The notes under the pieces were generated by a model. The model saw only the letters and a program-made list of their open reading frames with translations. It had not been told where the DNA came from and searched no databases. A stretch of DNA of 64,000 nucleotides from NCBI RefSeq assembly GCF_902652685.1, contig NZ_CACRUY010000005.1:87635-151634 (forward strand). The letters run 5' to 3'. Every line of letters starts with the position of its first letter. Position 1 is the stretch's first letter. Made by a program: the position numbers and the translations under genes. The stretch comes from Mycobacterium sp. Marseille-P9652 (GTDB lineage Bacteria > Actinomycetota > Actinomycetes > Mycobacteriales > Mycobacteriaceae). Positions 13,662 to 39,941 of this stretch are shown one piece after another.

Positions 13662-15536
13662 GTGCCGCGCAGCCTCGATCTCGTCATCACGTCGGTCGCC
13701 ACCCAACTGATGGAGGCGACCGGCGCCACCGCCACCCGGGTGAGTGAACGGGTTCTCGAGCAACTCGTCGAACAGTTCAACCTCGACGCCGCCTTCTTGC
13801 GGCACCACGATCACGACATCCGGGCGTCGGTGCTGGTCGCCGAATGGCCGCGCCGGGTGGACGTTCCCGACCCGGATCCGATGGCCGTCATCCACTTCAC
13901 CAGTGTCGACGCGGTTTTCGGGGATGGTGAGCACGGCAGGAAACCGGTCGTGATCCGGCCGGATCAGGCGACTCGCTCCTTCGCCCTCTGGTCGGGACCC
14001 AGGGCGGCGACCAAGCAGCCCGCCGCGCCGTCGGTGGCCGCCGCGCCGCTGGTCTCGGGCGAGGCGACCACCGGTGTGCTCGGCTTCGTCAGGTACGGCG
14101 CCCGCAAGTGGAAGCAGGAGGAGATCAACACGCTCGAGGCGGCGGCCGCGCTCTTCGCCCAGTTGCAGGCCCGGATCGCGGCCGAGGAAAAGCTCCGCTA
14201 CCTCGCCGAGCACGACGACCTGACCGGCCTGTACAACCGTCGGGCCCTGGTCGCCCACCTCACCGAGAGGCTGATCGCGGGCAGCCCCGGCCCGGTCTCC
14301 GTTTTGTACCTCGACCTGGACCGGCTCAAGCCGATCAACGATTACCTCGGCCACACCGCCGGCGACTGGTTCATCAGGGTCTTCGCGCAACGGCTCCGGG
14401 CCTGCGCCGGCATCCGCAGCATGATCGCCCGGCTGGGCGGTGACGAGTTCGTCGTCATCCCCGAACAGCCGATGTCGACCGCGACGGCGGAGTCACTCGC
14501 TCGGCGGCTGTGCGCGACGCTGCGCGAGCGACTGGCCATCGGGGGGCACATGATCACCCGCACCGTCAGCATCGGCGTCGCGGTGGGCGTCCCGGGCCGG
14601 GACAACAGCACCGACCTCCTGCGCCGGGCCGACGAGGCCGTGCTGACCGCCAAGCGTGGCGGCGGCAACCAGGTCGCGATGTCCACCGACGACATGTCGC
14701 TGAAAAGCGCGTTCCGCAACGACATCGAGCTGCATCTGCAGGGCGACATCGACAGCGAAGCGCTGCTGTTGCACTACCTTCCCGAGGTCGACCTGTGGAC
14801 CGGCGCCATCGTCGCCGCCGAGGCGCTGGTCCGGTGGCGGCACCCGATCTGGGGGCTGCTGCTGCCGGACTCGTTCATCGGGGTGGCCGAGTCGACGAAC
14901 CTGGCCGGTGAGTTGGGCCGATGGGTGATGCGAACCGCCTGTGCCGATTTCAGCCGCTGGCGGTCGAAAGGCATCGGGCTGAGCGCCACCCTGCGGATCA
15001 ACGTGTCGCCCGTGCAGTTGATCACCCGGGGCTTCGTGCGCAGCGTCGCCGACACCATCGACGAGTTCGGCATCGACGCCGGGTCGGTGTGCCTCGAGAT
15101 CACCGAGCGCGCCGTGGTGCACGACATGGAAACCACCCGCAAGACGTTGTCGGAACTCAAAGACGTCGGCGTGCAGATCGCGATCGACGACTTCGGCACC
15201 GGCTATGCCGTTCTGTCGCACCTGAAGTCGTTGCCGGTCGACACGCTCAAGATCGACACCGCGTTCGTGCGCGACCTGGGCACGAACGCCGGCGACCTGG
15301 CCATCGTCCGCGCGATCATCGGTCTCGCCGAGGCGTTCGGCCTGCAACTGGTCGCCGAGGGCGTCGAGACACCCGCCGCCGCACTGACTTTGATGCAGCA
15401 CGGCTGCCACCGGGCCCAGGGATTCCTGCTGTCGCGGCCCGTGCCGGCCGGCGCGATGGAGGCCCTGCTGGCCGCCCGCTGGATGCCCATGCCGTTCCTC
15501 GCCGATCGCGAGGCCCTGTCGTTAGGCGCGATCTAG
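13662..15536 (+). CDS. GAF-GGDEF-EAL cyclic-di-GMP turnover protein (Rv1354c-like)
   Basis: 624 residues from a GTG preceded by GGGAGGAG; an ATG at 13581 would add 27. GAF-like sensor at about 15-175, GGDEF diguanylate cyclase at 190-345 with intact GGDEF at 259-263, EAL phosphodiesterase at 365-610 with EAL at 387-389, DDFGTG at 509-514 and VAEGVETP. No RxxD inhibitory site precedes GGDEF. Both catalytic domains look intact, so it could make or degrade c-di-GMP. It strongly resembles M. tuberculosis Rv1354c (623 residues), which sits at a different locus there. Here it lies 11 bp upstream of the first EPS-island lipoprotein gene, which suggests co-transcription and c-di-GMP control of the polysaccharide. 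Confidence 0.93.
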   Translation: MPRSLDLVITSVATQLMEATGATATRVSERVLEQLVEQFNLDAAFLRHHDHDIRASVLVAEWPRRVDVPDPDPMAVIHFTSVDAVFGDGEHGRKPVVIRPDQATRSFALWSGPRAATKQPAAPSVAAAPLVSGEATTGVLGFVRYGARKWKQEEINTLEAAAALFAQLQARIAAEEKLRYLAEHDDLTGLYNRRALVAHLTERLIAGSPGPVSVLYLDLDRLKPINDYLGHTAGDWFIRVFAQRLRACAGIRSMIARLGGDEFVVIPEQPMSTATAESLARRLCATLRERLAIGGHMITRTVSIGVAVGVPGRDNSTDLLRRADEAVLTAKRGGGNQVAMSTDDMSLKSAFRNDIELHLQGDIDSEALLLHYLPEVDLWTGAIVAAEALVRWRHPIWGLLLPDSFIGVAESTNLAGELGRWVMRTACADFSRWRSKGIGLSATLRINVSPVQLITRGFVRSVADTIDEFGIDAGSVCLEITERAVVHDMETTRKTLSELKDVGVQIAIDDFGTGYAVLSHLKSLPVDTLKIDTAFVRDLGTNAGDLAIVRAIIGLAEAFGLQLVAEGVETPAAALTLMQHGCHRAQGFLLSRPVPAGAMEALLAARWMPMPFLADREALSLGAI

Positions 15537-15547
15537 CCCTGGGCACG

Positions 15548-17215
15548 ATGTTCGGTTCGGGGAGCAAGGCCGTGCTGGCGGTCGCCTGTGCGACGGCGAC
15601 GCTCATCGGCTGTGGTCGACACGTCGACCCGGGACCGCTGTCGGCGATGGCCTTCCCGGCCGTGCCGCCCACCGTTCAGGAGATCGCCAACCCGCTGCGC
15701 GGGCAGTACGAGGATCTGCTCAATCCTCTTTTCCCGCAGGGAAACCCGGCCGATCGGCAGTACCAGCCGTGGCCGGCGTCCTACGACGCCAGCCTGCGGG
15801 TGTCGTGGCGTCAGCTGCAGCCCACGGATCCCGGCTCGCTGCCGCCCGACGCCCCCGACGATCGCAAGTACGACTTCGGTGTGATCGACGACGCGCTGGC
15901 GAAACTGGGCAACCGCAACATGCGGTTGATCCTGGGCGTGTACTCCTACCGGTCCTGCTGCGGCGACTCGTCCGGCGGCGACGGGAACATCGCGATACCC
16001 GACTGGATGCGCCCCGCCGCCACCACCTATCCGGGTGCGCCCGACGGCGGCGGGGTGGCGCAGGTGGTGCCGAACTGGAACGACCCGCGCTACCTCGACG
16101 GCTTCGGCCGGCTGCTCGCCGCGCTGGGCCGCCGATACGACGCCGACGAGCGGCTGAGCGTCTTCGAGTTCTCCGGATACGGCGACTTCAACGAGAACCA
16201 AGTGGCCTACCTGCGCGACAAGCTGGCCGCGGCGGGTCCGGCGCCGGACGACAGCGCCGCGGCGCTGGGGTACTACAGCCAGTACCGCGACCAGAGCATC
16301 ACCGCGGCATCGATACGCCGGCTCGTCGCCGCCAACGCCGACGCCTTCCGGCACACCCAACTGGTGGTGACGCCACAGAATCCCGAGATCGTGCGTCAGC
16401 TGCTCGCCGACGACGTCACCAAGAAGCTGTCCGCGCCGGTGGGCATCCGCTCGGACTGCCTCGGCGTCCAGTCGCCGCTGCCCGGCTGGGCGGACACCGC
16501 CGACTCGCACTACGTGCGGACCAACGACGGCGTCGTCGATGCGCTGAAGCGGCGGCTCTCCGCGGCGCCGGTGATCACCGAGTGGTGCCCACTGCCCAGC
16601 GGGGCCGACCCGCGGTCGTACTACGAGAAGGGCTTGCACGACGTGGTTCGGTATCACGTGTCGATGACGTCGAGCTCCAACTTTCCCGACCGCGACTTCG
16701 CCTCCGCAATGGACCGCACCTTGTATCCTCTGTGGGCGCAGGCCAATACGGAGGCCGGGTACCGGTATTCCGTGGAGGCCCGCCCGGGATCGCAATCCAG
16801 ACGGGGCAAGGTGGCGACGATAGGGGTGGTGTGGACCAACTACGGCTCGGCGGCCGCGACCGAGAATTGGGCACCCGGCTACAAGCTGGTCGATTTCTCC
16901 GGCGCGGTGGTGCGGACCGTTCCCGCCACGGTGAACCTCAGGACACTGACGCCCGAGGACTCGAGCCAATCCCGCGAGGGGGCCGTCCCTACGTCGTCCA
17001 CCGACGACGTGCACGTCGACGTGTCGGGGCTGGCGCCGGGCCACTACACGCTCTGCGCATCCGTCGAGTGGCAGCAGCACAAGCCGGGCGCATCGCACGC
17101 GGTCAACTACGGCCCGATGGCACTGGCCCGTTACGGCCGCGACGCCTCCGGGATGTATCCCATTGCCTCCCTTGACCTCCCGCGTGACGACGCGGTGCCG
17201 GCCGGCGGTCACTGA
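15548..17215 (+). CDS. DUF4832-like TIM-barrel lipoprotein, copy 1
   Basis: 555 residues. Signal peptide with lipobox LIGC (Cys about 19). The N-terminal two thirds resemble the glycoside-hydrolase-like TIM barrel of DUF4832 proteins: an NPLRGQYEDLL opening, VSWRQLQPTD, YDFGVIDDALAKL, VYSYRSCC, VFEFSGYGDFNEN with an acidic pair at a barrel strand end, and VITEWCP. The C-terminal third (about 425-545) is a beta-sandwich with VVWTNYGSAAATENW and VNLRTL. Expected outside the cytoplasmic membrane, perhaps binding or cleaving the island's own polysaccharide; no activity can be assigned. Starts 11 bp after the c-di-GMP protein gene and 1 bp precedes its paralogue. Confidence 0.83.
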   Translation: MFGSGSKAVLAVACATATLIGCGRHVDPGPLSAMAFPAVPPTVQEIANPLRGQYEDLLNPLFPQGNPADRQYQPWPASYDASLRVSWRQLQPTDPGSLPPDAPDDRKYDFGVIDDALAKLGNRNMRLILGVYSYRSCCGDSSGGDGNIAIPDWMRPAATTYPGAPDGGGVAQVVPNWNDPRYLDGFGRLLAALGRRYDADERLSVFEFSGYGDFNENQVAYLRDKLAAAGPAPDDSAAALGYYSQYRDQSITAASIRRLVAANADAFRHTQLVVTPQNPEIVRQLLADDVTKKLSAPVGIRSDCLGVQSPLPGWADTADSHYVRTNDGVVDALKRRLSAAPVITEWCPLPSGADPRSYYEKGLHDVVRYHVSMTSSSNFPDRDFASAMDRTLYPLWAQANTEAGYRYSVEARPGSQSRRGKVATIGVVWTNYGSAAATENWAPGYKLVDFSGAVVRTVPATVNLRTLTPEDSSQSREGAVPTSSTDDVHVDVSGLAPGHYTLCASVEWQQHKPGASHAVNYGPMALARYGRDASGMYPIASLDLPRDDAVPAGGH

Positions 17216-17216
17216 C

Positions 17217-18896
17217 GTGGCGCGGGGTGTCCGCCGCGCGCTGCTCGTCGTCGCCTGCGCGTCGCTGTTGCTCTGCGGGTGCGGCCGTCCGGCCGACCCC
17301 GGTCCGTTGGTCGCGCTGGACCGCCCGCCCATACCGATGAACGTCCAGGAGATTGCGAACCCCTTGCGCGGGCAGTACGAGGACCTGTTGGAACCGCTTT
17401 TCCCGCAACGCAATCCCGCGCAGAAGCGGTACCCGCCGTGGCCCGCCTCCTACGATGCCAGCGTGCGTGTCTCGTGGCGGCAGCTGCAGCCCACCGACCT
17501 CCGCAGGCTTCCCCCCGACGCGCCCGACGACCGGAAGTACGACTTCAGCGTCATCGACGATGCGCTCGCCAAGCTGGCGAGCCGGAACATGCGGTTGACG
17601 CTGCGCGTGTTCGCCTACAACTCCTGTTGCGACGCAACGTATCCGAACAACACCAACATCGCGATTCCGGAGTGGATGCGCTCGGCGGCCACCGACTATG
17701 TCGGGCCCGTGCGGTACTGGTGGGGCCCGGGTCTGACGCAGGTGGTGCCGAATTGGAACGACCCGCACTACCTGGACGCCTTCGGCGACCTGCTGGCGGC
17801 GCTGGGCCGCCGCTACGACGGCGACGAGCGGCTCAGCGTGTTCGAGTTCTCCGGGTACGGCGACTTCAGCGAGAACCACATCGCTTTCCTGCGGGACAAG
17901 CTCGGTGCGCCGGGGCCCGCGCCGGACGACAGCGTGGCGGCGCTGGGGTATTACAGCCAGTTCCGCGACCAGAGCATCACCGCCGCCTCGGTACGCCGGC
18001 TGGTTGCCGCGAACGTCAGCGCCTTCCCGCACACCCAGCTGGTGACCACCGCGCTCAATCCCGAGATCGTGCGTCAGCTGCTGGCGGACGACGTGACCGC
18101 GCGGCTGTCCGCGCCGGTGGGCATCCGGTCGGACTGCCTGGGCGTGTACGCGCCGCTGCCCGTCTGGGCCGAATCCGACCAGTCGCACTACGTCCAGACC
18201 AAGGATCCGCTCGTCGGCGAGCTCAAGGACCGCCTCGCCACGGCGTTGGTGATCTCCGAGTGGTGCCAGCTGATGAACGGCATCGATCCCCGGTCCTATT
18301 ACGAGAAGGCGCTGCGCGACGTCATCCGCTACCACGTGGCGATGACCGCGAGTTTCAACTTCCCGGATGCGGACTCCACCACCGCGATGGATCCGGCCCT
18401 CTACCTGTTGTGGGCCCAGGCCAACGTTTCGGCGGGCTACCGGTACTCGGTGCAGGCCCGGCGGGGATCGGAGACAGTGCGCGACGGCGTGGCGTCGGTG
18501 GCGGTGACCTGGACCAACTACGGCTCGGCGGCCGCCACGGAGAAGTGGGTTCCCGGCTACCGGCTGGTGGATTTCTCCGGAACGGTGGTCCGGACCGTGC
18601 CGGCGACGGTCAACCTGCGAACGCTGGTCCACAACGAATCCGGCGACTCCTCGGCGAAGGAACCGGTTCCGTCGTCGGCCGGCGAATCGATCCGCGTCGA
18701 CGTGGCCGGATTGCCGCCCGGGCAGTACACGCTTCGGGCGTCCGCGGATTGGCAGCAACACAAGCCCGGCGCCACTCAGACCGTCAACTATCCGCCCATG
18801 CAGCTGGCTCGCGACGGGCGCGACGAATCGGGCTCGTACGCGATCGCGACGCTCGATATTCCGCGCGCCGGGCTCACCCCCGCCCCGGGACAGTGA
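17217..18896 (+). CDS. DUF4832-like TIM-barrel lipoprotein, copy 2
   Basis: 559 residues from a GTG at 17217, giving signal peptide MARGVRRALLVVACASLLLC with lipobox LCGC. Co-linear over its whole length with the preceding protein and highly similar (same NPLRGQYEDLL, SWRQLQPTD, VFEFSGYGDF, PVGIRSDCLGV and TNYGSAAAT segments), so a tandem duplication. Differences include the CCDATYPNN loop where copy 1 has CCGDSSGG, and ISEWCQ where copy 1 has ITEWCP, which may mean different specificity. An earlier in-frame start at 17163 would overlap copy 1 and lacks a signal peptide. Last gene before a 135-bp gap preceding the chain-length gene. Confidence 0.83.
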   Translation: MARGVRRALLVVACASLLLCGCGRPADPGPLVALDRPPIPMNVQEIANPLRGQYEDLLEPLFPQRNPAQKRYPPWPASYDASVRVSWRQLQPTDLRRLPPDAPDDRKYDFSVIDDALAKLASRNMRLTLRVFAYNSCCDATYPNNTNIAIPEWMRSAATDYVGPVRYWWGPGLTQVVPNWNDPHYLDAFGDLLAALGRRYDGDERLSVFEFSGYGDFSENHIAFLRDKLGAPGPAPDDSVAALGYYSQFRDQSITAASVRRLVAANVSAFPHTQLVTTALNPEIVRQLLADDVTARLSAPVGIRSDCLGVYAPLPVWAESDQSHYVQTKDPLVGELKDRLATALVISEWCQLMNGIDPRSYYEKALRDVIRYHVAMTASFNFPDADSTTAMDPALYLLWAQANVSAGYRYSVQARRGSETVRDGVASVAVTWTNYGSAAATEKWVPGYRLVDFSGTVVRTVPATVNLRTLVHNESGDSSAKEPVPSSAGESIRVDVAGLPPGQYTLRASADWQQHKPGATQTVNYPPMQLARDGRDESGSYAIATLDIPRAGLTPAPGQ

Positions 18897-18936
18897 CGTG
18901 GTGAGCGGCGAACCATTTCGATTTCCGGCCACACGA

Positions 18937-18972
18937 CGCGCTGCGTACTATGCAGGATTATTGCGCAGCGCG
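18937..18972. promoter_or_regulatory. Inverted repeat upstream of the Wzz/CpsCD gene
   Basis: Perfect 9-bp arms CGCGCTGCG (18937-18945) and CGCAGCGCG (18964-18972) with an 18-nt AT-rich spacer, followed by CCTTTAAG and a second small repeat (CCTTT...AAAGG, 18973-18990). It sits in the only real gap of the plus-strand EPS operon, so it could be a partial terminator behind the lipoproteins or an operator for the assembly genes. Confidence 0.45.
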
Positions 18973-19031
18973 CCTTTAAGTGAATAAAAGGACGAATTCT
19001 CCCGCTGCGTTCTCAGAAAGGTCTTCAGCCG

Positions 19032-20492
19032 ATGGATTTCCGTACCTTTGTCCGGATACTCCTCGCGCACTGGAAGCTCGCCGTCGGCGCGCTGCTGGCG
19101 TGCACGATCGGTGCCGCCGCACTGACGGCGGTGCAAACAAAGCACTACCAGTCGTCGGCCACGATCCTGATCTCCTTCCCGGGCGCCACCGACCTGACCG
19201 AGCTGTACAACGGCACGCTGGCGGCCCAGGAACGGCTGTCGTCGTACGCCCAGATCGCGGGCGGCCGCACCGTGGCCGAACGCGCGGTGAACCAGGTGCA
19301 GGCGCCCATGAGCGCCGACTACCTGGTGACCCAGACCCAGGTCAAGTACACCGCGAAGTCCCTGCTGTTCACGATCACCGTCAAGGACACCGATGCCAGG
19401 CGCGCCGCGGCGCTGGCCGGGGCGATGGCGGATCAGTTCGCGGCGATCGTGCCGACGCTGGGAGCCACCGTCGGGTCCACCGGTCCTTCGGCTCCCGCCA
19501 CCGCCGGGCCGCGGACCGAACCGGGCGAGACGACCCCGGCCCCCGGTCAGCCGCCCGAAGCCGCCCCCGGGCAGCCGGCCGGCAAGACGCTGGCGGTGGC
19601 CCGGGCGAAGGTGGTTGAACCGCCCCGGGTACCCGACCACCCGATCACGCCGGTGCCGGCCCGCAACATGGTGATGGGCTTCGCCGCCGGACTGCTGCTC
19701 GGCATCGCCGTGGCCCTGGTCCGCGAGGCCACCGACCGCAGCGTGCGCACGCGCGAGAAGCTGGAGGAGCTGTCCGGGCTGCCGACCCTGGCCGAGCTGC
19801 CCGGAAAGCGCGGCGCGGCACCGAGATTCGGTACGGACGTCACGTTCGACGACGGTGTGCGCGGCATGCGGGCCCGGCTGCGCCGAGCCGTCGGACCCGA
19901 CGCCCGCCGGTTGCTCCTGGCGGCCCCTTTCGGCGGCGAGGGAACGACGACGACGGTGCTGAACCTCTCGCGGGCGCTCGCCGAGATCGGCGAGGACGTG
20001 CTGCTCGTCGAGGGTGACACGCGCCGGCCGGTGGTCGCGGGCCTGCTGAACGTCGAATCGGGGGAGGGCCTGGCCAACGCGCTGGGCAACCCCGACATCG
20101 CCGCGGAGGCCGTGAAGCCGACCGCGATCGCGAACCTGTTCATCCTCGCCGCTCGGTCGGCCCGCCGCGAGGCCCTGCCGTGCAGCGCGTATGCCCCCGA
20201 GGCGATCGACCGGGTGCTCGGCGAGCTGTCGTCGCGGTTCGACCGCGTGGTGGTCGACGGTCCACCGATCCTGGCCACGGCCGACAGCGTCCTGCTGGCC
20301 GGCGCCGTGCAAGCCACGGTGCTGGTGGTCCGGGCGAGGCGCACGACCGTCGACGAGCTCACCGACGCCTTGACCGCGCTGCGCGCGGGCGGCGCGAACG
20401 TCGTCGGCACCGTGCTGACCGACGCCCGGCCGTCGGTGCGCAGCCGGGCCTCGGCACGCGCGTACCGCGGAAAGGTGCGGGGGACGGCGTGA
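19032..20492 (+). CDS. Wzz/CpsC-CpsD-type polysaccharide co-polymerase with degenerate ATPase domain
   Basis: 486 residues. Wzz domain with N-terminal helix (about 13-33) and second helix (about 212-232), a Pro/Ala-rich periplasmic insert, then a CpsD/BY-kinase-like domain (about 270-480). The P-loop reads APFGGEGTTTT, with Thr305 where the ATP-binding Lys should be, and Walker A' is LLVEGDTRRP with the first Asp replaced. The C terminus has one Tyr (ARAYRGK), not a tyrosine cluster. Likely sets chain length in partnership with the polymerase encoded next, but probably without normal kinase activity. The 3' end overlaps the polymerase start by 4 bp (GTGA). Confidence 0.87.
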   Translation: MDFRTFVRILLAHWKLAVGALLACTIGAAALTAVQTKHYQSSATILISFPGATDLTELYNGTLAAQERLSSYAQIAGGRTVAERAVNQVQAPMSADYLVTQTQVKYTAKSLLFTITVKDTDARRAAALAGAMADQFAAIVPTLGATVGSTGPSAPATAGPRTEPGETTPAPGQPPEAAPGQPAGKTLAVARAKVVEPPRVPDHPITPVPARNMVMGFAAGLLLGIAVALVREATDRSVRTREKLEELSGLPTLAELPGKRGAAPRFGTDVTFDDGVRGMRARLRRAVGPDARRLLLAAPFGGEGTTTTVLNLSRALAEIGEDVLLVEGDTRRPVVAGLLNVESGEGLANALGNPDIAAEAVKPTAIANLFILAARSARREALPCSAYAPEAIDRVLGELSSRFDRVVVDGPPILATADSVLLAGAVQATVLVVRARRTTVDELTDALTALRAGGANVVGTVLTDARPSVRSRASARAYRGKVRGTA

Positions 20493-21964
20493 TCTTCGAG
20501 CTGCGGGGCCGACATCGCCTGGCGATGGACGGAGCCGCGCTTGCCCTCTTCCTGTTCGGGTGCTTCGTGTTCGGCGTGCTCTCGGTGCGCCGAACGACCG
20601 AGGGCGTGCTGCTCATCGCGGCGCTGTTCTGCCTGGTCGTGTACTGGGTGAAGCCCGAAGGGATGACGGCGGTCATGCTGTTCGGGGCGTTCGCCGCGCT
20701 GCCCGAAGGGCTGCACATCGGCAAGGTGTTCGGGCCGGTGGCGGTCTACGCCTACCAGGTGGCCGCGATCCTCGCGATCTGCTACCTGCTCCCGATCGTC
20801 AAGCTCCGGTCCTACGACTGGCTGCTACCGGGGATGTTCGCGTTCACGGTCGTGGTCTTCACCGTCGTCGGGTTCCAGATGGGGCACGACGCCACGATGG
20901 TGATGCGCGAATCGACGACCTTGTTCGAAATGATCGTCGGGTTCGTGCTGGCGTTGCTGCTCGTGTACGGCGGCTACGTCCGCTGGATCATCCGCGTGAT
21001 GGTGCCCATCCTGTGGTTCTCGGCGGGCATGGCGATCGTGAGTTCGTTGCACGCCATCCGGCTGGCCGGGCGCGCCGAAAGCCTGGAAGAGTCGACCGGC
21101 GCGGGCCAGGCCCTGCGCATCGTCCTGTCCACCCAGACACCGGCGACCGCCGTGCTCAGCGGACTCGTCGCCGCCGCGATCATCGGCCGCGTCAGGCCGG
21201 CCGTCTACCTGTCCCTCGGGCCGCCCGCGCTCGTCATCTCGCTCCTGTCGTTCGCCCGCAACACGCTGATCGCCGTGGCCGTCGCGGCCCTGGTCGCCTT
21301 CCTCACCAGCTTCGGCTGGGCGGCCCTGCGCCGGACGGCCATGGTGGCCGTCTTCAGCGCCGCGGTCTTCGCGGTGACGGTGCCGGGGTCGCTGTTCGTG
21401 CTGCAGCATTCCGAGGCGGGGGCGTGGCTCAGCGACCAGTTCACCGCGTTCAACCAGCGCGTGCTGGGCGGGGTTTCGGCGAGTGCGCTGGCCACCGACG
21501 AATCCACGCTCGACCGGCTGCGGGAGGTCGCGCGGCTCAACGAGGCCATCGCCCAGGCGCCGGTGTTCGGGCACGGCCTCGGCTACGCCTACCAGCTGCC
21601 GTCCGGCAAGGACCCGAACTCCTTCGCCTGGAAGCTGGGGCCCACCTACTCGCACCTCTTCTACCAGTGGTTCCTGGCGAAGGCCGGGGCGGTGGGCCTG
21701 GCGGCGTTCGCGTGGTTCGCGCTGACGCCGGTGGTTCGTGCGGTGCGCTGCGCGACGGTGCCGGCCAAGATCAGCGCGGCCGTCAGCGCGGGCCTGCTGG
21801 CGATCACCGCCGTCTGGCCGTTGCCGGAAATGCCGATGGACGCCTTGGCGCTGGGGCTGTGCCTGGGGGCCGCGATGGGATTCGCCGGCCTGCGGCGCCG
21901 GGAGCGCGAAGCGGCTCCCGCCGGCGCTTCGCCGGCTCAGGCCGGGGCGCCGGGTGTCCGCTGA
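20489..21964 (+). CDS. Wzy/O-antigen ligase-like polysaccharide polymerase
   Basis: 491-residue polytopic membrane protein with about 10-12 hydrophobic helices and a large extracytoplasmic loop around 325-400 containing GHGLGYAYQLPSG and YSHLFYQWFLAKAG, the His-rich segment typical of the O-antigen ligase/polymerase family. Such proteins join lipid-linked repeat units at the outer face of the membrane. GTG start chosen for the 4-bp overlap with the Wzz-like gene; the 3' end overlaps the next glycosyltransferase by 1 bp (TGATG). Tight coupling with chain-length and transferase genes supports polymerase over ligase, but the family does not separate them cleanly. Confidence 0.8.
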   Translation: MIFELRGRHRLAMDGAALALFLFGCFVFGVLSVRRTTEGVLLIAALFCLVVYWVKPEGMTAVMLFGAFAALPEGLHIGKVFGPVAVYAYQVAAILAICYLLPIVKLRSYDWLLPGMFAFTVVVFTVVGFQMGHDATMVMRESTTLFEMIVGFVLALLLVYGGYVRWIIRVMVPILWFSAGMAIVSSLHAIRLAGRAESLEESTGAGQALRIVLSTQTPATAVLSGLVAAAIIGRVRPAVYLSLGPPALVISLLSFARNTLIAVAVAALVAFLTSFGWAALRRTAMVAVFSAAVFAVTVPGSLFVLQHSEAGAWLSDQFTAFNQRVLGGVSASALATDESTLDRLREVARLNEAIAQAPVFGHGLGYAYQLPSGKDPNSFAWKLGPTYSHLFYQWFLAKAGAVGLAAFAWFALTPVVRAVRCATVPAKISAAVSAGLLAITAVWPLPEMPMDALALGLCLGAAMGFAGLRRREREAAPAGASPAQAGAPGVR

Positions 21965-28595: not shown

Positions 28596-28602
28596 GGCTG
28601 AT

Positions 28603-32045: not shown

Positions 32046-33677
32046 CTAGTACGCCCCGTGGCTCGTCAATACGGCTTTCACGGTCTTGGCGATGATCATC
32101 AGGTCACCCGACATGGACCAATTGTCGACATACGACAGGTCCAGCCGCACGGATTCTTCCCAAGAAAGATCGGAACGGCCGCTCACCTGCCACAGCCCGC
32201 TGACGCCCGGCTTCACCAGCAGCCGCCGGTGGACGTCGCCGTCGTAGTTCTCGACCTCGCGCCGCAGCGGGGGGCGCGGGCCGACGACGCTCATGTCGCC
32301 CTTGAGCACGTTGATGAACTGAGGCAGCTCGTCGATGCTGAACCGGCGCAGCATCCGGCCGACGGGAGTGACGCGGGGGTCCTGGCGCAGCTTGAACAGC
32401 ACGCCGCCCGCGCCTTCGTTCATCGACATCAGGTGGTCGAGCTGCTTGTCCGCCCCGTCGGTCATCGTGCGGAACTTGAGCATCGTGAACGGCTTGCCAT
32501 CAATGCCGATGCGCTCGGAGTGGTAGAAGACCGGACCCTTGCTCGTCAGCTTCACGGCGAGGGCGGCCACCAACAGGACCGGCGCCGTCGCGATCAGGGC
32601 GGCCAGTGAGAAGCAGAAGTCGAAAGCCTGCTTCTGGAACCGCTGCGTGCCCTCGTATTGCGGCTTCTCGACGTGCAGCAGGGGCACGCCGGCGGTGAGG
32701 CGCAGGGCCAGCCGCGCCTCCGCGACGTCCATCACGCCGGGCGACACCACCAGGTCGATGTCCATGGTCTCCAGCTGCCACATCAGCTCCCTGATGGCGT
32801 GCATGCCGAAGTCGGTGGTCTGCGCGATGGCGACCGTGTCCGCGCCGCACCTCTCGATCGCCGCCGCCGCGTAGGTTTCGTCACCGAGAATCGGGACCCG
32901 GCGGCCGCCGACCTTCAGCGTGTTGCCGCGCGGCCCCCCGTAGCCGGGGATGCACACGCCGACTACGACGCACCCGTCACTGGGATTGCGGCCGAACTCG
33001 TGCGCGAGGTGGGACACCGCCTGCCGGTCCCCGATCGCCAGCACCCGGGTCAGGCAACGGCCGCGAGCGCGCTGACGGCGGATGTACGTGCGCCACAGGC
33101 TGCGGCTGGTCAGCAGACCCAAGGTGCCGGCGGGCAGCGCGATCGCCAGGTAGCCGCGTGCGAGGTCGACCTTTGCCAGCATCGTGACCATCGCGATGAT
33201 GCCGAACGTCCAGAACGACGCCGTGCCGATGCGACGGTACTCCTCGATCCCGGCGCCGATTACCCGCGGCGACCGCGTCTGCATGATGGCCAGCGACGAA
33301 AGCCACAGCGCGGCGAAGATAAATGAGTACAGCGTGATGACGGGGTCCGAGTAGCCCGACGTGTTCTGGAAGTCGCCGAACCGGACCGATTGAGCCAGGA
33401 TTACCGCGGCGAACACGATCACCGCGTCGCTGATGCGGAGCCAGCGTGAGTACTGGTACTGCCAGCGCCGCAGGGTGGTGGCACCGGACAACGGTGCCGG
33501 ACGGGCGGGGGCCGGCACCCCCGCGGTGCGGACGCGCGGCATGGGCGTCGGCGTCGATTTGATCGGTGGAATCGCCTGCGGCAGAGCGACCTTCGCCGTG
33601 AGGCGGGCCGCCGGGGCGATCAGCCGTCCGGCGGCAACCGCCTTTGACTTCCGGGGAATCACCTGCTCGGTCGTCAT
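32046..33677 (-). CDS. Polyprenyl glycosylphosphotransferase (WbaP/CpsE type)
   Basis: 543 residues. Initiates polysaccharide synthesis by loading sugar 1-phosphate onto polyprenyl phosphate. Cytoplasmic N terminus rich in Pro/Ala/Lys, four hydrophobic helices at about 78-190, a CoA-binding-like domain (VLAIGDRQAVSHLAHEF), then the catalytic bacterial sugar transferase domain (about 350-543) with YHSERIGIDGKPFTMLKFRTM, RRFSIDELPQFINVL, VGPRPPLRREV and KPGVSGLWQVSGR. All core motifs are intact. The gene starts 9 bp after the PPE gene and abuts the flippase gene, so the operon order is PPE, initiating enzyme, flippase, transferases. Confidence 0.92.
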   Translation of the reverse strand: MTTEQVIPRKSKAVAAGRLIAPAARLTAKVALPQAIPPIKSTPTPMPRVRTAGVPAPARPAPLSGATTLRRWQYQYSRWLRISDAVIVFAAVILAQSVRFGDFQNTSGYSDPVITLYSFIFAALWLSSLAIMQTRSPRVIGAGIEEYRRIGTASFWTFGIIAMVTMLAKVDLARGYLAIALPAGTLGLLTSRSLWRTYIRRQRARGRCLTRVLAIGDRQAVSHLAHEFGRNPSDGCVVVGVCIPGYGGPRGNTLKVGGRRVPILGDETYAAAAIERCGADTVAIAQTTDFGMHAIRELMWQLETMDIDLVVSPGVMDVAEARLALRLTAGVPLLHVEKPQYEGTQRFQKQAFDFCFSLAALIATAPVLLVAALAVKLTSKGPVFYHSERIGIDGKPFTMLKFRTMTDGADKQLDHLMSMNEGAGGVLFKLRQDPRVTPVGRMLRRFSIDELPQFINVLKGDMSVVGPRPPLRREVENYDGDVHRRLLVKPGVSGLWQVSGRSDLSWEESVRLDLSYVDNWSMSGDLMIIAKTVKAVLTSHGAY

Positions 33678-33686
33678 CGGGCGGCC

Positions 33687-34862
33687 CTATGCGTATCCGC
33701 CGGCCGGCGGCCGCGTCATGATCGTCGGGACGATGCCGTAGCGCGGCCCCAGCGACTTGGTCGCCGACGCCAGCCGCGGCAGCGAGCCCAGCATGGTCGG
33801 GGGCACGGCCGGCGTGCCGAGGGCGTTGGGCAGCGCGGCGGCGGCGCTCACCGGCGCCGTCGGGATCACGCTGGTCCAGCTGGCGGGCACGGACAGGGGA
33901 CCCAGCGCGCTGGCGGTGCCGAGGCTGCCGAACACGCTGGAGCCGAGCGCTCCGGCCGAGCCGGCCGCGCTCGCCACTCCCGACGCCGCCCCCGCGGCGG
34001 CCGCGGCAACCCCGTCGCCGGCGGCCTTGGCCAGACCTTGGACAGTCTGGGCGATCCCGAGCACCGAGGACAGTCCGTACAGCGGCGTCGCCCCGGCCAT
34101 CAGCCAGGTCGGCAGGGAGTAGGGCAGGTTGGTCGTGAAGCTCGAGATCGTCGACGACAGGGTGCTGGACAGGGCCGCCGAGGAGGTCGAGGTGCCCAGC
34201 ATCGCCGTGGCCGGCGTCGTGAGCGCCTGCAAGGTGGCCGGGACGGAGGACACCAGGCTCGCCAGGGAGAACTGGCTCTCCGCCGAGACGGAGGCCGCCT
34301 GGGTGACCGCCGCGGCCTGCTGGCCCAGGCCCGCCGGGCTGGTGACCTCCGGCGGCGAGGCGAACGGCGTGACCTCGGTGGCCGCCGCCGCGTGCGCCGC
34401 GTACTGGTACATGGCCGCCGCGTCCTGGGCCCACATCTCGCCGTATTCGGCTTCGGTGGCCGCGATGGCGGGCAGGTTCTGGCCGAAGAAGTTGGTGGCG
34501 ATCAGCGCCGCGAGTTGGGCCCGGTTGGCGGCGACAGCGGGCGGGGGCACGGTCATGGCGAACGCGGCCTCGTAGATCTCCACGGAGAGCCGCGCGTGGC
34601 TGGCCGACTCGGCGGCCCGCGCGGCGGCCCCGGACACCCACGCGACGTACGGTCCGAACGCCGATGCCATGGCCAGCGACGTCGGGCCCATCCAGCGGTT
34701 GGTCACCAGTCCGGCGATCACCGACTTGTACAGGCTGGCGGCGGTGTGCAGTTCCGCGGCCAGGCCGTCCCACGCTACGGCAGCCGCGACGAGCGATCCC
34801 GGGCCGGGACCGGCATACATTCGTGCGGAGTTGATCTCCGGCGGGAGCGCACCAAAGTCCAC
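33687..34862 (-). CDS. PPE-family protein, SVP subgroup
   Basis: 391 residues. N-terminal PPE domain (1-175) begins [18 protein letters not shown] with the PPE triad at 7-9 and has a YGEMWAQD helix; the C-terminal region is Ala/Ser/Gly-rich and carries the subgroup motif GPLSVPASW at 321-329. PPE proteins are exported by type VII secretion systems, usually paired with a PE protein. No PE gene is adjacent here. It is the first gene of the flippase/glycosylphosphotransferase operon, 9 bp upstream, which is an unusual setting. Divergent from the TetR pair across a 494-bp AT-richer region. Function in the EPS pathway unknown. Confidence 0.92.
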
Positions 34863-35356: not shown

Positions 35357-36028
35357 ATGACGACCCACTCGACCGACGGACGCGCGGACGCGACACGGCG
35401 CCAGATTCTTCGCGCCGCCGCGCACCAGTTCGCGCGCCGCGCCTATCACGAGGTGGGTCTCGACGACATCCTCGCCGATGCCGGACTGACCAAGGGCGCG
35501 ATGTACTTCCACTTCAAATCGAAGTACGCGCTGGCGGTGGCGATCATCGATCACGAGACATCAGACGGCGCCATCGTCGTGGAAGACCTCCTGAGCAGGG
35601 GTTTGTCGGGACTCGAGACCCTGATCGACTTCTCCTACCTGATCGCCGTCCAGGACATCACGACCGACGAGGTCAGGGCCGGGCTCAACCTCATCGAATC
35701 GGTCGGCCTGTCCGAGGGGCTGCAGGAGCGGCTGCTGGGCAGCTGGGCGAAGGCCCTGGCCGGGGTCGTCGAGCAAGCCATCGCCGAGGGCGACATCGGC
35801 GAACAGTGGGACCCGCAGGATGTGGGGCGCTTCATCGTGTCGCTGCACATGGGCCTGCGGAAGACCAGCTCCCTCGATCAGCCGGAACAATTTCTGCTCG
35901 ACCTGGAGAAGAGCTGGGCGCTCATCCTGGCGGGCATCCTGCAACCGGAGCGCGCTGACTATTTCCGGCAGTTCCTCCGGCGGCGCGCGTCGCTCGCGAT
36001 CAACGCGAATTCCCACGGGGAGCACTAG
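35357..36028 (+). CDS. TetR-family regulator, gamma-butyrolactone-receptor (ScbR)-like, copy 1
   Basis: 223 residues. Helix-turn-helix at about 30-60: VGLDDILADAGLTKGAMYFHFKSKYALA, where the MYFHFKSK form is typical of ScbR/ArpA-type receptors of actinomycete signalling butyrolactones. The ligand domain has LIDFSYLIAVQDI and ends PERADYFRQFLRRRASLA. The next gene ends with a near-identical YFRQFLRR segment, so the two are likely paralogues. Predicted repressor acting on the divergent PPE/EPS promoter region and on its own gene; ligand unknown. No butyrolactone synthase (AfsA-like) gene is in the window. Confidence 0.85.
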   Translation: MTTHSTDGRADATRRQILRAAAHQFARRAYHEVGLDDILADAGLTKGAMYFHFKSKYALAVAIIDHETSDGAIVVEDLLSRGLSGLETLIDFSYLIAVQDITTDEVRAGLNLIESVGLSEGLQERLLGSWAKALAGVVEQAIAEGDIGEQWDPQDVGRFIVSLHMGLRKTSSLDQPEQFLLDLEKSWALILAGILQPERADYFRQFLRRRASLAINANSHGEH

Positions 36029-36098
36029 CGCCTGACGAGGACCGGCCGTTTTCGAGCGCCGAGCGGGCGCGGGCCGCGGTCGTTTACGTTAGTCTCTC

Positions 36099-36117
36099 GC
36101 CGGGCACGTTGCCCGGC
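36099..36117. promoter_or_regulatory. Perfect palindrome in the leader of the second TetR gene
   Basis: GCCGGGCA (36099-36106) and TGCCCGGC (36110-36117) flank a 3-nt centre (CGT), 25 bp before the ATG and just after the word GTTAGTCTC. Position and symmetry fit an autoregulatory operator, or an RNA hairpin in the leader. Confidence 0.5.
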
Positions 36118-36142
36118 CGAGACTTCCGGGAGGACACAAGCG

Positions 36143-36856
36143 ATGGCGCGTCAGGTTCGATCTGAAGCCACTCGGCGGAAGATCTTCGACGCGGCAATCG
36201 ATGTGTTCGGCGACGTCGGATTCGCCGCCGCCGGCTGGGGGACGATCATCGAGCGCACCGGCATGACGAAGGGCGCCCTCTACCACCACTTCGATTCGAA
36301 GGAAGCGCTGGCATCGGCCGTCATCCAGGAGGGTTCGCAATCGCTGCTGAACGCGTTCCGGAACGTCTGCGGGGCGTCGTCGCCGGGTCTCGAGAACATG
36401 GTGCACGGCACATTCACCGTCGTGAAAACGCTGAATTCGGACAAGATGGCCCGCACGGCCGTGCAACTGGCGTCCGGGCTGAGCGGGTACAACGAGGCGG
36501 TCTCGCGCTTCTACGCGAGCCTGGTGGCCGAGATGGCCGACCAGGCCCGGCGCGCGGTCGCCGAGGGCGATGTGCGCGACGACGTCGACCCCGAAGTGGT
36601 CAGTGAGTCGATCGTCGGCGCCGTCTTCGGAACGCTGTTGCTTTCGGACGCGGTGTCGCGCAACGGCGCGGCCCCGAACGGTGACGCGGACGAGCCCACC
36701 GTGCGGCTGCGGCACCTCTGGGAGCTGTTGCTCCCCGGCGTCGTCTCGGACGCCTCACTGGCGTACTTCCGGCAGTTCCTGCGCCGGGAGGCCGTGCGCC
36801 ACACCCCGGTCGCCGCCGCCCGCGAGGGTGCCGGCGCGGAGCCCACTACCACCTAG
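36143..36856 (+). CDS. TetR-family regulator, gamma-butyrolactone-receptor (ScbR)-like, copy 2
   Basis: 237 residues. Helix-turn-helix with WGTIIERTGMTKGALYHHFDSKEALA at about 32-58, a ligand domain with TVVKTLNSDKMARTAVQLAS, and a C-terminal SLAYFRQFLRREAV that mirrors copy 1. N terminus MARQVRSEATRRKIFDAAIDVF follows the ScbR-type pattern. It lies 114 bp after copy 1 on the same strand with its own palindrome. In Streptomyces, paired true and pseudo receptors often act together on one gene cluster; that comparison is established, its application here is inference. The BcsB-like gene starts 86 bp downstream. Confidence 0.85.
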   Translation: MARQVRSEATRRKIFDAAIDVFGDVGFAAAGWGTIIERTGMTKGALYHHFDSKEALASAVIQEGSQSLLNAFRNVCGASSPGLENMVHGTFTVVKTLNSDKMARTAVQLASGLSGYNEAVSRFYASLVAEMADQARRAVAEGDVRDDVDPEVVSESIVGAVFGTLLLSDAVSRNGAAPNGDADEPTVRLRHLWELLLPGVVSDASLAYFRQFLRREAVRHTPVAAAREGAGAEPTTT

Positions 36857-36942
36857 CAGTCCCTGACCGCCCGCTCGAGGCGCGCCGCGCAGTGATTTTC
36901 GATTGATTTCGGCGACCTACTCGAAGACTGCATACTGTTGCC

Positions 36943-38910
36943 GTGAAGTACCTGAAGTATGTGGCCAGAGTTGTCGCCGTGGCCGCTGTGCTCGCCGCCT
37001 CGACCCTCAGCGCCCCGCCGTCCTGGGGGGCGCCCGGCGACCCGGTGACGTCCGCGGACTCGACGACCCTGTCCCTGGCCGATCTCGGGTCTTCGCCCAT
37101 GCTGGAATTCTGGGGGCTCACCAGCAGCCAGCAGCTGACCGTGCCGGTGCTGCACGGGCTGACACCGACGGCACTCAACGCGACCGTCGAGCTGCCCATC
37201 AACCTGCGGTCGGGGCTGCTCACCGTCACGCAGGGCGAACGCACTCTTGCCCGGATCAACCTGCCGACGGCCGATCAGACGCCGATCGTCATTCCGCTCA
37301 CGGGGGCGGAGGTGGACGACGACTGGCTGACGGTGACCATGCGCGCGTACCTCGTGCCCCAGGAGGGATTCTGCCTCTACCCGGAGAGCCCGTTGCGCCT
37401 CGTCGGCGGGACGATCAGCTACACCGGGGTCGAGCAGCCGCCCAACACGGTCGCCCATTTCCTGCCGCCGGTGCTGCGCAAGCTGAGCATCTATCTGCCG
37501 CAGTCGCCGTCGCCCGCCGAATCCGACACGGCCGTCCGGCTGGCCACCTCCGCCGCCGCCCACTACGGCAAACAGACTCCCGACATCGTGGTGGTGCCCC
37601 TCGGGGAGGGGCAGGCGGCCCCGCCCGCACCGCCGCAGCCCATGGAGCGCCAGATCGTCGTCAAGGAGGGGCCGGACAACGGGATGTCGATCCAGGGCTC
37701 CGGCGGAGTGCCCTACCTGTTGATGTCGGGGCCCCTCGGGCAGGCCGACGAATCCGACATCGCCATGCTGTTCAACGACCTGTCGCAGCTGGCCGTCTCG
37801 ACCAAGGCCTCGGTCGAGACGCTCAAGCCGAACGTGCAACTGCCCGGTGACACGGCGTCGATGCGCGACGTAGGGCAGCCGTTCGCGAACGCGACGTCGC
37901 TGCAGCCGCGCGTGTCGATCGGCTTGGACCAGACGCGGTTCGGCAGATCCTTCCACTCGGTGCGGGTGCACCTCGTGGGCTCGTACACCCCGACGCCCGG
38001 CAACATCGGCGGCCAGATCACCGCGGCGGTCGGCGCCGAGACCATCGACCACTGGGCGACCGACGGCCACGGCAACATCGACCGCTGGATCGACGTGCCC
38101 GACCGGTTACTGCAGCGCTACACCAGCCTTGATCTGGTGCTCGACGTCGCGAGCAACGTCGGTCATTGCGGCGACTTCTACACCGCCGGGCCGGGAAATC
38201 AGCTCCTGACGCTGAACATCAACGGCGACACCACCATTCAGACGAGCCCCGCCTCGCCGCCCATACCCGACGGCTTCCAGTCCGTGCCGCAGACGTTGAT
38301 GCCGCGCGTCCAGGTGGGGATCGAACCGCACTCGCTGATCGACACGATCCGGGCGATCAACATCCTGGTGGGACTGCAACGGATCAGCGCGGTGCTGATC
38401 GGGACGACGGTCACCGGTGTGAAGCAGGCGATCGAGTCGTCGAACCCCGCGATCGTGATCGCCGCCGACGGGTGGAACCACTCCGACGTCGCGCTACCGG
38501 TGTCGGCGGGGCCGAGCGGACCCATCACGGTCAACGCCGTCGAAGCCGGTGGCAAACCCACCAAGCTCACGCTGGACCCGACCATGCGGTTCGCTTCTCT
38601 CCAAACGGTTTTCAACCGCGGCCGGTCCTTGCTCGTCGCGACGTCCAACGGCGCGCCGGGGCAACTCGACGAGTTGCTGCGCTGGCTCAACAGCGACAAC
38701 AACAAGCACTGGCAGCGGCTCAAGGGAGTCGCCGCGGTGGCCATCCCCGGGCAAGACCCGGTGACCGTGCAGCAGCCGCCCACCTCCGGCCCCGCCGCCG
38801 GGTCCCAGGGCCACCAATCGGATCTCGAGTGGCTGTGGTGGTTCGGGGCGGGTTGGCTCGTGCTGGCCATCGTCGGTGCCGGGATCATCGTGCTGCGCAC
38901 CAGGCGCTGA
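36943..38910 (+). CDS. BcsB-like periplasmic polysaccharide synthase subunit
   Basis: 655 residues, GTG start. Signal peptide at 1-29 (to SWGAPG), a long extracytoplasmic part with alternating beta-rich carbohydrate-binding-like and flavodoxin-like regions (LTVPVLHGLTPTALNATVELP, FCLYPESPLRLVGGTISYTG, VASNVGHCGDFY), and one C-terminal helix at about 628-650 followed by LRTRR. This is the layout of BcsB, the periplasmic partner of cellulose synthase BcsA in c-di-GMP-controlled systems. No BcsA-like synthase occurs in the window, so it may guide another polymer. Followed 14 bp later by the deacetylase gene. M. tuberculosis Rv1006 sits at an equivalent place; homology not verified. Confidence 0.75.
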   Translation: MKYLKYVARVVAVAAVLAASTLSAPPSWGAPGDPVTSADSTTLSLADLGSSPMLEFWGLTSSQQLTVPVLHGLTPTALNATVELPINLRSGLLTVTQGERTLARINLPTADQTPIVIPLTGAEVDDDWLTVTMRAYLVPQEGFCLYPESPLRLVGGTISYTGVEQPPNTVAHFLPPVLRKLSIYLPQSPSPAESDTAVRLATSAAAHYGKQTPDIVVVPLGEGQAAPPAPPQPMERQIVVKEGPDNGMSIQGSGGVPYLLMSGPLGQADESDIAMLFNDLSQLAVSTKASVETLKPNVQLPGDTASMRDVGQPFANATSLQPRVSIGLDQTRFGRSFHSVRVHLVGSYTPTPGNIGGQITAAVGAETIDHWATDGHGNIDRWIDVPDRLLQRYTSLDLVLDVASNVGHCGDFYTAGPGNQLLTLNINGDTTIQTSPASPPIPDGFQSVPQTLMPRVQVGIEPHSLIDTIRAINILVGLQRISAVLIGTTVTGVKQAIESSNPAIVIAADGWNHSDVALPVSAGPSGPITVNAVEAGGKPTKLTLDPTMRFASLQTVFNRGRSLLVATSNGAPGQLDELLRWLNSDNNKHWQRLKGVAAVAIPGQDPVTVQQPPTSGPAAGSQGHQSDLEWLWWFGAGWLVLAIVGAGIIVLRTRR

Positions 38911-38924
38911 GCCGGCACCGCGCG

Positions 38925-39941
38925 ATGCGACCGGCCATCCGCGTTATCGCGGCCGGGCTGCTGTGCGCCGCGGGGGTGCCGGCGCTGACGCGGCGTCGGC
39001 ACCGCGACCGGCTCGCGATCGTGATGTTCCATGGCGTGACCGACCGCCCGCTGTCACCGCCGTGCCGGCATGTGACCGCGACGGCGCTGTACCGCCGTCA
39101 AATGCGTTATCTGCGAGAGCATTTCAACGTCCTGCCGCTTGAGGACGCCCTCGGCCGGCTCGCCGCGGGCACGCTGCCGCCGCGCGCGGTGGCGATCACG
39201 TTCGACGACGGCACCCGAAACCTTGCGACGCACGCGCTGCCGGTGCTGCGGGAACTGAAGCTGCCGGCGGCGCTGTTTCTCGCGACGGGCCCGATCGGCA
39301 GCGACGAAACCCTGTGGCCCGACCGGTTGTGGCTCGCTGTCGCCCGCACCACCGCGGCCAGGGTGGACCTGTCGGTGCTGGGGCTCGGCACCCGTTCGCT
39401 CGACGGTGCCGCGAGCCGCGGCCGAACCTACGGGGCCGCGGTGGAGGCGCTGAAGGACCTGGCCGACGACCGACGCATCGCCGTCCTGGACGACGTCCTC
39501 GGCGCCCTGGGCCACCGCGACGACGGCGACCCGGGCCCGTTCCGGATGTTGACCTGGACGGAGGCGCGTGAGATGGCGCGCGACGGCCTGGTCGCGCTGT
39601 ATCCGCACACGGTGACGCACCCGATCCTCGCGCGGTGCGGCGACGACAAGGTCGAGCGGGAGATCACCGACTCGTGCCGCGCGATCCGGGGCGAAACCGG
39701 CTCAGCGCCAAGGGTATTCGCCTACCCCAACGGGCAGCCCCAGGACTTCGACGGCCGCGCCCGCGATGTCCTGCGCGGTTGCGGCGTGCGCTGGGCGCTG
39801 TCCACCACGCCGGGGTTCGCCGACCGCCACAGCGACCCGCTTTCGTTACCGCGGTTGGCGGCCGGCAGCGCACCGTCGTTCGCCTACTTCCGCCTCATGG
39901 TCTCCGGCGGGCTGCCGCGCCGCCGCGCGCGGGTCGGCTAA
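38925..39941 (+). CDS. Polysaccharide deacetylase (NodB-like, CE4)
   Basis: 338 residues. N-terminal hydrophobic segment (5-22) is probably a signal anchor, so the enzyme faces outward. CE4 motifs: ITFDDG at 91-96 with base and metal Asp, and His228-x3-His232 in YPHTVTHP as metal ligands, plus FAYPNGQPQDFDGRA near the C terminus. It would remove N-acetyl (or O-acetyl) groups from the EPS. Start chosen at the ATG 14 bp after the BcsB-like gene. The 3' end overlaps the convergent PAS gene by 4 bp. Last gene of the island on this strand. Confidence 0.87.
   Translation: MRPAIRVIAAGLLCAAGVPALTRRRHRDRLAIVMFHGVTDRPLSPPCRHVTATALYRRQMRYLREHFNVLPLEDALGRLAAGTLPPRAVAITFDDGTRNLATHALPVLRELKLPAALFLATGPIGSDETLWPDRLWLAVARTTAARVDLSVLGLGTRSLDGAASRGRTYGAAVEALKDLADDRRIAVLDDVLGALGHRDDGDPGPFRMLTWTEAREMARDGLVALYPHTVTHPILARCGDDKVEREITDSCRAIRGETGSAPRVFAYPNGQPQDFDGRARDVLRGCGVRWALSTTPGFADRHSDPLSLPRLAAGSAPSFAYFRLMVSGGLPRRRARVG

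Follow-up and report, generated by a model that had tools for sequence, protein, structure and literature searches.

A probable serotype-like surface polysaccharide locus between pabB and metG in slow-growing mycobacteria

The window analysed here is a stretch of 64,000 nucleotides from Mycobacterium sp. Marseille-P9652 (contig NZ_CACRUY010000005.1). Its positions 13662 to 39941 are flanked by a pabB-ECF41-oxidoreductase block on the left and by metG on the right, and gene calls and family searches place a near-complete Wzx/Wzy pathway between them, in agreement with an earlier note on this DNA that had read a pathway of this type there. The locus is probably a serotype-like surface polysaccharide locus, in which predicted glycosidases would trim the product and a PPE protein would take part. 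It is widespread, conserved but variable, and sits in a fixed chromosomal slot, rather than being an isolated island; many slow-growing mycobacteria carry this swappable gene set.

Genes were called by codon usage, with starts that were picked by score and may be a few codons off, and families were assigned to the window proteins by the cut-offs of the Pfam and NCBIfam models. The first called gene begins at 13662 and the last stops at 39941, which are the borders that the earlier note had drawn. The genes are as follows.

13662..15536, + strand: GAF-GGDEF-EAL cyclic di-GMP (c-di-GMP) enzyme (PF00563, PF00990 and PF01590, on a longer frame from 13581)
15548..17215, + strand: LpA, lipoprotein with TIM barrel and DUF4832, predicted glycosidase (DUF4832 at 6.5e-5, below the cut-off; paralogue of LpB by alignment; lipobox read from the sequence)
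17217..18896, + strand: LpB, lipoprotein with TIM barrel and DUF4832, predicted glycosidase of the Rv1006 family
19032..20492, + strand: Wzz chain-length protein fused to a BY-kinase-like ATPase, with the Walker A Lys replaced by Thr
20489..21964, + strand: Wzy-type polymerase of the O-antigen ligase family (PF04932, on a longer frame from 20180)
21964..22983, + strand: GT4 glycosyltransferase (family match in the frame 20560-22983)
22970..23926, + strand: aldo/keto reductase (family match)
23923..25623, + strand: GMC oxidoreductase, pyranose-oxidase-like (family match)
25620..26630, - strand: GT4 glycosyltransferase, member of a conserved triad (family match)
26675..27496, - strand: SAM-dependent methyltransferase (PF13489)
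27708..28595, + strand: conserved protein without a family in Pfam or NCBIfam, 81-86% identical to copies in relatives
28603..30561, - strand: GT2-GT4 fusion glycosyltransferase, member of the triad (GT4 half by Pfam)
30558..31979, - strand: Wzx flippase, member of the triad (PF01943, PF13440)
32046..33677, - strand: initiating polyprenyl-phosphate sugar-phosphate transferase (PF02397; TIGR03025 above the cut-off)
33687..34820, - strand: PPE-SVP protein whose orthologues track the pathway (PF00823, PF12484)
35357..36028, + strand: TetR regulator 1, ScbR-like below the model cut-off
36203..36856, + strand: TetR regulator 2, ScbR-like below the model cut-off
36943..38910, + strand: exported protein without a family, with a C-terminal membrane anchor read from the sequence
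38925..39941, + strand: CE4 polysaccharide deacetylase (PF01522)
39938..40300, - strand: small PAS-domain protein (TIGR00229)

The initiating transferase scores 425 bits with TIGR03025 against a cut-off of 295.55, which bears out the initiation gene read earlier at 32046-33677. The flippase exceeds the cut-offs of both of its models (PF01943, 60.8 against 28.2; PF13440, 55.4 against 23), as do the polymerase (PF04932, 35.4 bits against 31.7) and the Wzz protein (PF02706, 30.5 against 25.5) with theirs, and three further glycosyltransferase genes have family support besides the initiating enzyme. Family models support each of the glycosyltransferases, flippase, polymerase, chain-length protein, deacetylase, GGDEF-EAL and PPE proteins of the earlier note, and its tailoring oxidoreductases are matched by the aldo/keto reductase and the GMC oxidoreductase. 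Of its methyltransferases, one is supported by PF13489 (26675-27496) and the other is unassigned, since 27708-28595 has no family match in these searches; we take the latter to resemble FkbM-type methyltransferases. In 28603-30561, the GT4 half is supported by Pfam and the GT2 half is a presumed one, judged by its sequence.

The genus sample comprises 148 genomes (G handles; loci have L handles), part of a larger group, and the counts and trees drawn from it take no account of phylogeny. While metG is found in all 148 and pabB in 147, a full-length wzy is present in 38, with a short wzy remnant in G089. In 23 of the 38, wzy lies inside the pabB-metG interval of a single contig, and the distance from pabB to metG is 20.8-37.6 kb in 22 of these (for example 29.2 kb in G000, 30.3 kb in G038, 28.7 kb in G017, 23.8 kb in G110 and 20.8 kb in G076) and 87 kb in G108. 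Contigs are split at the locus in eight genomes (G007, G010, G047, G048, G051, G116, G120 and G131), and wzy is outside the interval in seven (G030, G057, G074, G079, G081, G091 and G097), where the gap from pabB to metG is 4-10 kb. The 15 wzy-less intervals examined range from 145 bases (G083) up to roughly 10 kb in G058, where a skeleton of GGDEF-EAL, lipoprotein, TetR pair and PAS genes is kept; the 4-5 kb intervals of G023, G026, G029, G064, G105 and G129 hold one gene of the LpA/LpB (Lp) family, an oxidoreductase and the ECF41 genes, to which G064 adds a GGDEF-EAL fragment. The presence of the block as one unit, which the earlier note proposed to check, is thus seen as linkage in the slot in 23 of 38 wzy genomes; seven have the pathway relocated, and other intervals are reduced with remnants.

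The same picture emerges from named species, for which 80 of 125 relatives were kept and 72 loci obtained, so that the species lists are incomplete. Fifty-two of these loci have wzy; wzz, wzy and wzx are all absent from 16 loci that reach from pabB to metG, and four loci are incomplete. Species bearing the locus include M. colombiense, M. scrofulaceum, M. parascrofulaceum, M. europaeum, M. nebraskense, M. interjectum, M. paraense, M. asiaticum and M. gordonae. The interval is reduced in M. szulgai, M. angelicum, M. simiae and M. arosiense, and reduced with fragments in M. lepraemurium. In M. bohemicum the interval is reduced (L131) and the pathway relocated (L100), and the pathway is also outside the interval in M. 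ostraviense (matching G074) and M. attenuatum (matching G057). In L149 (M. lepraemurium) and L065 (G089), the locus is broken up, with pathway genes and skeleton genes alike left as separate pieces. These patterns suggest several losses of the pathway, host-adapted lineages included.

Gene content, linkage, variation, loss and co-occurrence were computed, and from them we infer every enzymatic step, the polymer, its regulation and the PPE role. The transferase 32046-33677 would put the first sugar on the polyprenyl carrier, and the GT2-GT4 fusion, the GT4 enzyme and the other transferases would assemble the repeat unit, which the GMC oxidoreductase, aldo/keto reductase and methyltransferase genes may tailor. 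Wzx would then flip the unit, and Wzy and the Wzz/ATPase protein would polymerise it. The CE4 deacetylase and the 36943-38910 protein probably act outside the membrane, where LpA and LpB, as outward lipoprotein glycosidases, would trim or release the polymer, as has been proposed for SIR_1591 on Pel (PMC12345266, available sections). The PPE protein may be a dedicated surface or mycomembrane part, and control would probably lie with the c-di-GMP enzyme and the TetR pair.

LpA and LpB are predicted TIM-barrel plus DUF4832 glycosidases that would trim the polysaccharide. The barrel comes from a predicted model and a fold search, and DUF4832 is matched by all 21 Lp members compared (best 5.9e-5), the window copies scoring 19.6 and 23.2, short of the Pfam cut-off of 29.2. 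In the model, strand 206-210 ends with Glu210 and strand 345-349 contains Glu348; the two are tentatively counted as barrel strands 4 and 7. The outward lipoproteins of the earlier note keep their lipobox and are better read as such glycosidases. PslG of Pseudomonas, presumably encoded in the Psl extracellular polysaccharide (EPS) operon, gives one comparison. It shares a TIM-barrel glycosidase fold with the model of the Lp protein (5bx9 and 9g17; Foldseek E 1.3e-8 and 3.0e-8, TM-scores 0.29-0.38), a likeness at the level of the fold only. A second comparison is SIR_1591 of the S. intermedius pel operon (pelDEADAFG), described in the available sections of PMC12345266 as a glycoside hydrolase with an extracellular TIM barrel (beta-amylase/beta-galactosidase-like) and a C-terminal DUF4832, an architecture shown there to be active. 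Like SIR_1591, the Lp proteins are predicted to combine a TIM barrel with a DUF4832, here a candidate, beside EPS genes; the operon is Pel there and Wzx/Wzy here, and SIR_1591 has a transmembrane helix where LpA and LpB have a lipobox. According to the accessible part of PMC7112168, a DUF4832 gene is contiguous with the EPS operon in Gram-positive Pel loci, and bifidobacteria have a dual diguanylate cyclase/phosphodiesterase instead. The window has DUF4832 and dual c-di-GMP genes as neighbours, and no Pel synthase is found among its called genes.

The Lp family is found in 60 of the 148 genomes, including all 38 with wzy and 22 of the 110 without it. Sorted manually, these 22 comprise 12 close full-length copies (one split over contigs), six distant copies, one open copy in the decayed locus of G089, two decayed copies (G075, G115) and one fragment (G032). 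Distant Lp homologues (42-51% identical) were followed at 18 loci in 17 genomes, and the triad of wzx, GT2-GT4 and GT4 genes lies within the same 20 kb at 16 of them; of the other two, L238 has wzz/wzy-like matches and L237 has nothing. At the distant loci from other genera, the triad is present in 10 of 12. GT2-GT4 is found in 45 of the 148 genomes (E <= 1e-80), 41 of which have Lp. The putative catalytic Glu348 is retained in at least one Lp copy of every wzy genome (37 compared, plus the window); the only loss in these genomes is a change to Gln in LpA, seen in 11 of them, with LpB retaining Glu. Examples of LpA copies with Gln at this site beside an intact LpB are L024, L091 and similar ones. 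The Gln-type LpA is possibly a non-catalytic, polymer-binding partner. Where a close full-length Lp occurs without wzy (12 genomes), Glu348 is missing in five (Ala in G059, Gln in G103 and G129, Arg in G105, His in G113) and kept in seven; G089, with Gln, was excluded from this count. Fisher's test for loss in wzy-less orphans gives P 0.0004 with relatedness ignored, and in G103 and G129 the Gln may just reflect retention of a Gln-type LpA. All six distant wzy-less copies keep Glu348.

The PPE protein matches PF00823 with 217.2 bits against a cut-off of 26, and PF12484, the SVP subfamily, with 43.7 against 23. In the 148 genomes its matches show a score gap from 279.7 to 248.3 bits, and the class above the gap occurs in 34 of the 38 wzy genomes and in none of the 110 without wzy (P 2e-29, relatedness ignored). 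The wzy genomes without an orthologue are G030, G076 (where PPE matches are in pieces), G079 and G081. In all 25 examined stretches with the initiating transferase, relocated pathways included, the PPE gene is within 7 kb of it; one of the 25 is the reduced interval L110, which speaks against a strict tie to the polymerase. This co-occurrence and proximity indicate that the PPE protein travels with the machinery, and it is better read as part of it than as an interloper. Its presence, which the earlier note had described as interleaved, stands, and it is now read as linked to the pathway. Reduced intervals other than L110 have no PPE match, apart from a fragment in L120. The PPE protein may export or anchor the polymer.

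Several observations weigh against a trimmed surface polysaccharide as the product of the locus. The polymer itself is a prediction, and PF04932 spans polymerases and ligases. The Walker A region of the Wzz ATPase reads GGEGTTTT, with Thr where BY-kinases have Lys, so that it is possibly not a working kinase and kinase function may be absent; of 95 hits, tallied by locus with stretches that overlap, 70 have Thr or Ser at the site, four matched another stretch and 21 were unmatched by the pattern. Family scans of the called island genes found no Wza/OPX exporter. Among the 38 wzy matches, those in G071, G094 and G117 each carry one in-frame TGA. Genomes G050, G088, G092 and G147 have GT2-GT4 and lack Lp; the wzy genomes G001, G076 and G143 are without GT2-GT4. 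Interval L110 (Mycobacterium sp. 4858) has the PPE and initiating transferase genes and no wzz, wzy or wzx. Lp, sometimes with both Glu residues, remains in genomes without the pathway, and may therefore have another job. The Fisher P values overstate independence because the species are related. Finally, deletion of SIR_1591 gave no phenotype in its own host, according to the available sections of PMC12345266.

Mycobacteria are known for lipooligosaccharide and glycopeptidolipid glycolipids, and with ligases included in PF04932 the product could be a glycolipid or lipooligosaccharide, for which Wzx would flip a completed oligosaccharide and the PF04932 protein would serve as ligase. This is improbable, since the Wzz gene adjoins the PF04932 gene in the island types and in relocated copies, no acyltransferase or polyketide synthase is found among the called island genes, and Lp shares the architecture of the Pel hydrolase. 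It is likewise rather unlikely that the Lp proteins have a host glycan or a general wall glycan as substrate and that their EPS neighbourhood is incidental. The orphan copies, with Glu348 in seven of the 12 close full-length ones, speak for such a role; the co-occurrence of Lp with wzy in 38 of 38 genomes and the triad beside 16 of 18 distant homologues speak against it.

The Lp family also bears on M. tuberculosis. By the numbering Rv1005c-Rv1006-Rv1007c, Rv1006 is presumably the one gene that separates pabB from metG there. Residues 24-59 of Rv1006 are printed in PMC8006519, which in its accessible part treats it as a conserved hypothetical protein, and the part of PMC3087520 consulted lists it as a 'glycosyl transferase' among putative transferred genes. 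Judged by this 36-residue peptide, 69-77% identical to the nearest Lp members, Rv1006 belongs to the Lp family. The peptide matched 111 of 396 genus genomes, with a best identity of 77%, so that the M. tuberculosis genome is apparently outside the set. The best match is in M. simiae, whose pabB-metG interval has Lp as its one remaining long match (L147). In M. tuberculosis, Rv1006 is probably all that is left of the locus, an orphaned gene for a predicted trimming enzyme. A tentative extension is that the PPE protein is now a dedicated Wzx/Wzy part, substituting for a Wza-type exporter or anchor at the outer membrane or surface, and that the system disappeared from the tuberculosis lineage except for Rv1006, whose family loses a putative catalytic residue in several orphans.

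Although the slot is fixed, its contents vary. Genomes G038, G062, G097, G100 and G116 have the gene content of the window, with mt1-mt2; G001, G031, G046, G061, G118 and G143 are without mt1-mt2; G006, G017, G045, G071, G094, G108, G117 and G134 are without gt4a, akr, gmc, mt and the 36943-38910 gene; G076, G110 and G132 have wzy at 50-54%; and G057, G074, G079 and G081 belong to no type. Relative to the window, metG is 91% and wzy 61-62% identical in G017 and G134, while in G116 the values are 90% and 82%. In the 18 genomes holding all nine genes compared, the rest being dropped, the tree correlation with the flank genes (Mantel r) is 0.65 for the pathway and 0.84 for the TetR pair. The pathway tree pairs G001 with G143 (support 1.0) and the flank tree pairs it with G062/G100 (support 0.96), a contradiction on which pure vertical inheritance is rejected. 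The gene-content types, the contrast between metG and wzy identities and the lower correlation of the pathway with the flanks form the pattern expected from swapping at a serotype-like locus, and allelic swapping within the genus is a better reading than recent acquisition of the block. A horizontal island inserted whole in this species is very unlikely and already largely refuted: the only partial congruence of the pathway tree with the flanks would fit it, but the locus occupies the same slot in many species, decayed remnants are seen in G089 and M. lepraemurium (L149), distant relatives occur in other genera, and the GC comparison proposed by the earlier note finds no deviation (70.2% in the island, 72.1% in the left flank and 70.2% in the right flank). 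In G108 (C4:88000-175700), where pabB and metG are 87 kb apart, the wzx-side genes are about 65 kb from the wzy-side genes, which suggests a large insertion within the locus.

Wzx/Wzy-dependent capsule or EPS loci of the cps type are among the closest known systems. They share with the window an initiating transferase, glycosyltransferases, Wzx, Wzy, a Wzz-ATPase and type-specific genes within conserved flanks. The window differs in its mycobacterial host, the TIM-barrel DUF4832 lipoproteins, the locus-linked PPE protein, the familyless exported protein, the Walker A substitution and the lack of Wza among called genes. In the portions of the literature searched, which included Rhodococcus/Gordonia and PPE topics as well as PMC6364259 and PMC5735094, neither the locus nor its control was found described, in line with the earlier note, which knew of no described mycobacterial EPS system of this kind. 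The available part of the review PMC6364259 reports cellulose in M. tuberculosis biofilms with its synthesis pathway unidentified, and other polysaccharides as awaiting characterisation. The genes for polysaccharides of the mycobacterial biofilm matrix are largely unknown, and the locus offers a testable pathway in many non-tuberculous species; Rv1006 gains a likely origin and function, and a PPE protein gains a concrete partner pathway. The variation suggests that the type of surface polysaccharide may differ between mycobacterial species.

The GGDEF-EAL enzyme has intact motifs (GGDEF at 259, EAL at 387 and DDFGTG at 509). Related enzymes occur in 114 of the 148 genomes (E <= 1e-100), the interval copies being 72-89% identical and the others listed at most 70%. 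Three equal-scoring copies, 60% identical to that of the window, are found in the 3.3 Mb genome G075 (C1:1032805, 2375079 and 2846274), and one in the similar-sized G115. Reduced loci often retain the GGDEF-EAL, Lp, TetR1, TetR2 and PAS genes, with the pathway genes gone between Lp and TetR1 (G058, G113), and in G057, G074 and G097 the relocated pathway has left the GGDEF-EAL gene, the TetR pair and an Lp gene behind in the interval. These genes therefore need not serve the pathway alone, and the tie of the GGDEF-EAL and TetR genes to it is one of position only. The earlier note had also read two ScbR-like TetR proteins and butyrolactone-receptor-type control; both are TetR proteins with ScbR as the best NCBIfam model, at 127 and 113 bits below its cut-off of 150. 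That the pair are gamma-butyrolactone receptors switching the polysaccharide on is highly improbable, and the idea was rejected on the distribution of AfsA: an AfsA-family gene occurs in 10 of the 148 genomes, of which only G000 bears wzy, nine are without wzy, and 37 of the 38 wzy genomes are without AfsA; no homologue of a window TetR lies in the 19.9 kb around the G000 gene, no strongly conserved operator is found upstream of TetR1 among 45 sequences, and the pair is retained where the pathway is gone. The G000 gene (C4:120309-121133, L173) has two AfsA domains, of the butyrolactone synthase family.

The family of the exported protein 36943-38910 is found in 89 of the 148 genomes, many members being distant paralogues elsewhere. 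Pfam at E <= 10 gave one chance-level match (DUF7942, E 3.9, in one of 18 members), no PDB sequence matched at E <= 1, and the model, built with four sequences, is poor (pLDDT 48.6, pTM 0.29); a reading as BcsB, the cellulose synthase subunit B, was dropped on these results. None of wzx, GT2-GT4 and GT4 is found in seven stretches around its homologues in rapid growers (L083-L089). In L085 and L087, also from rapid growers, the homologue is within two genes of a PF13641 GT2, and L085 has an initiating transferase nearby, so these may be a second, synthase-type polysaccharide locus.

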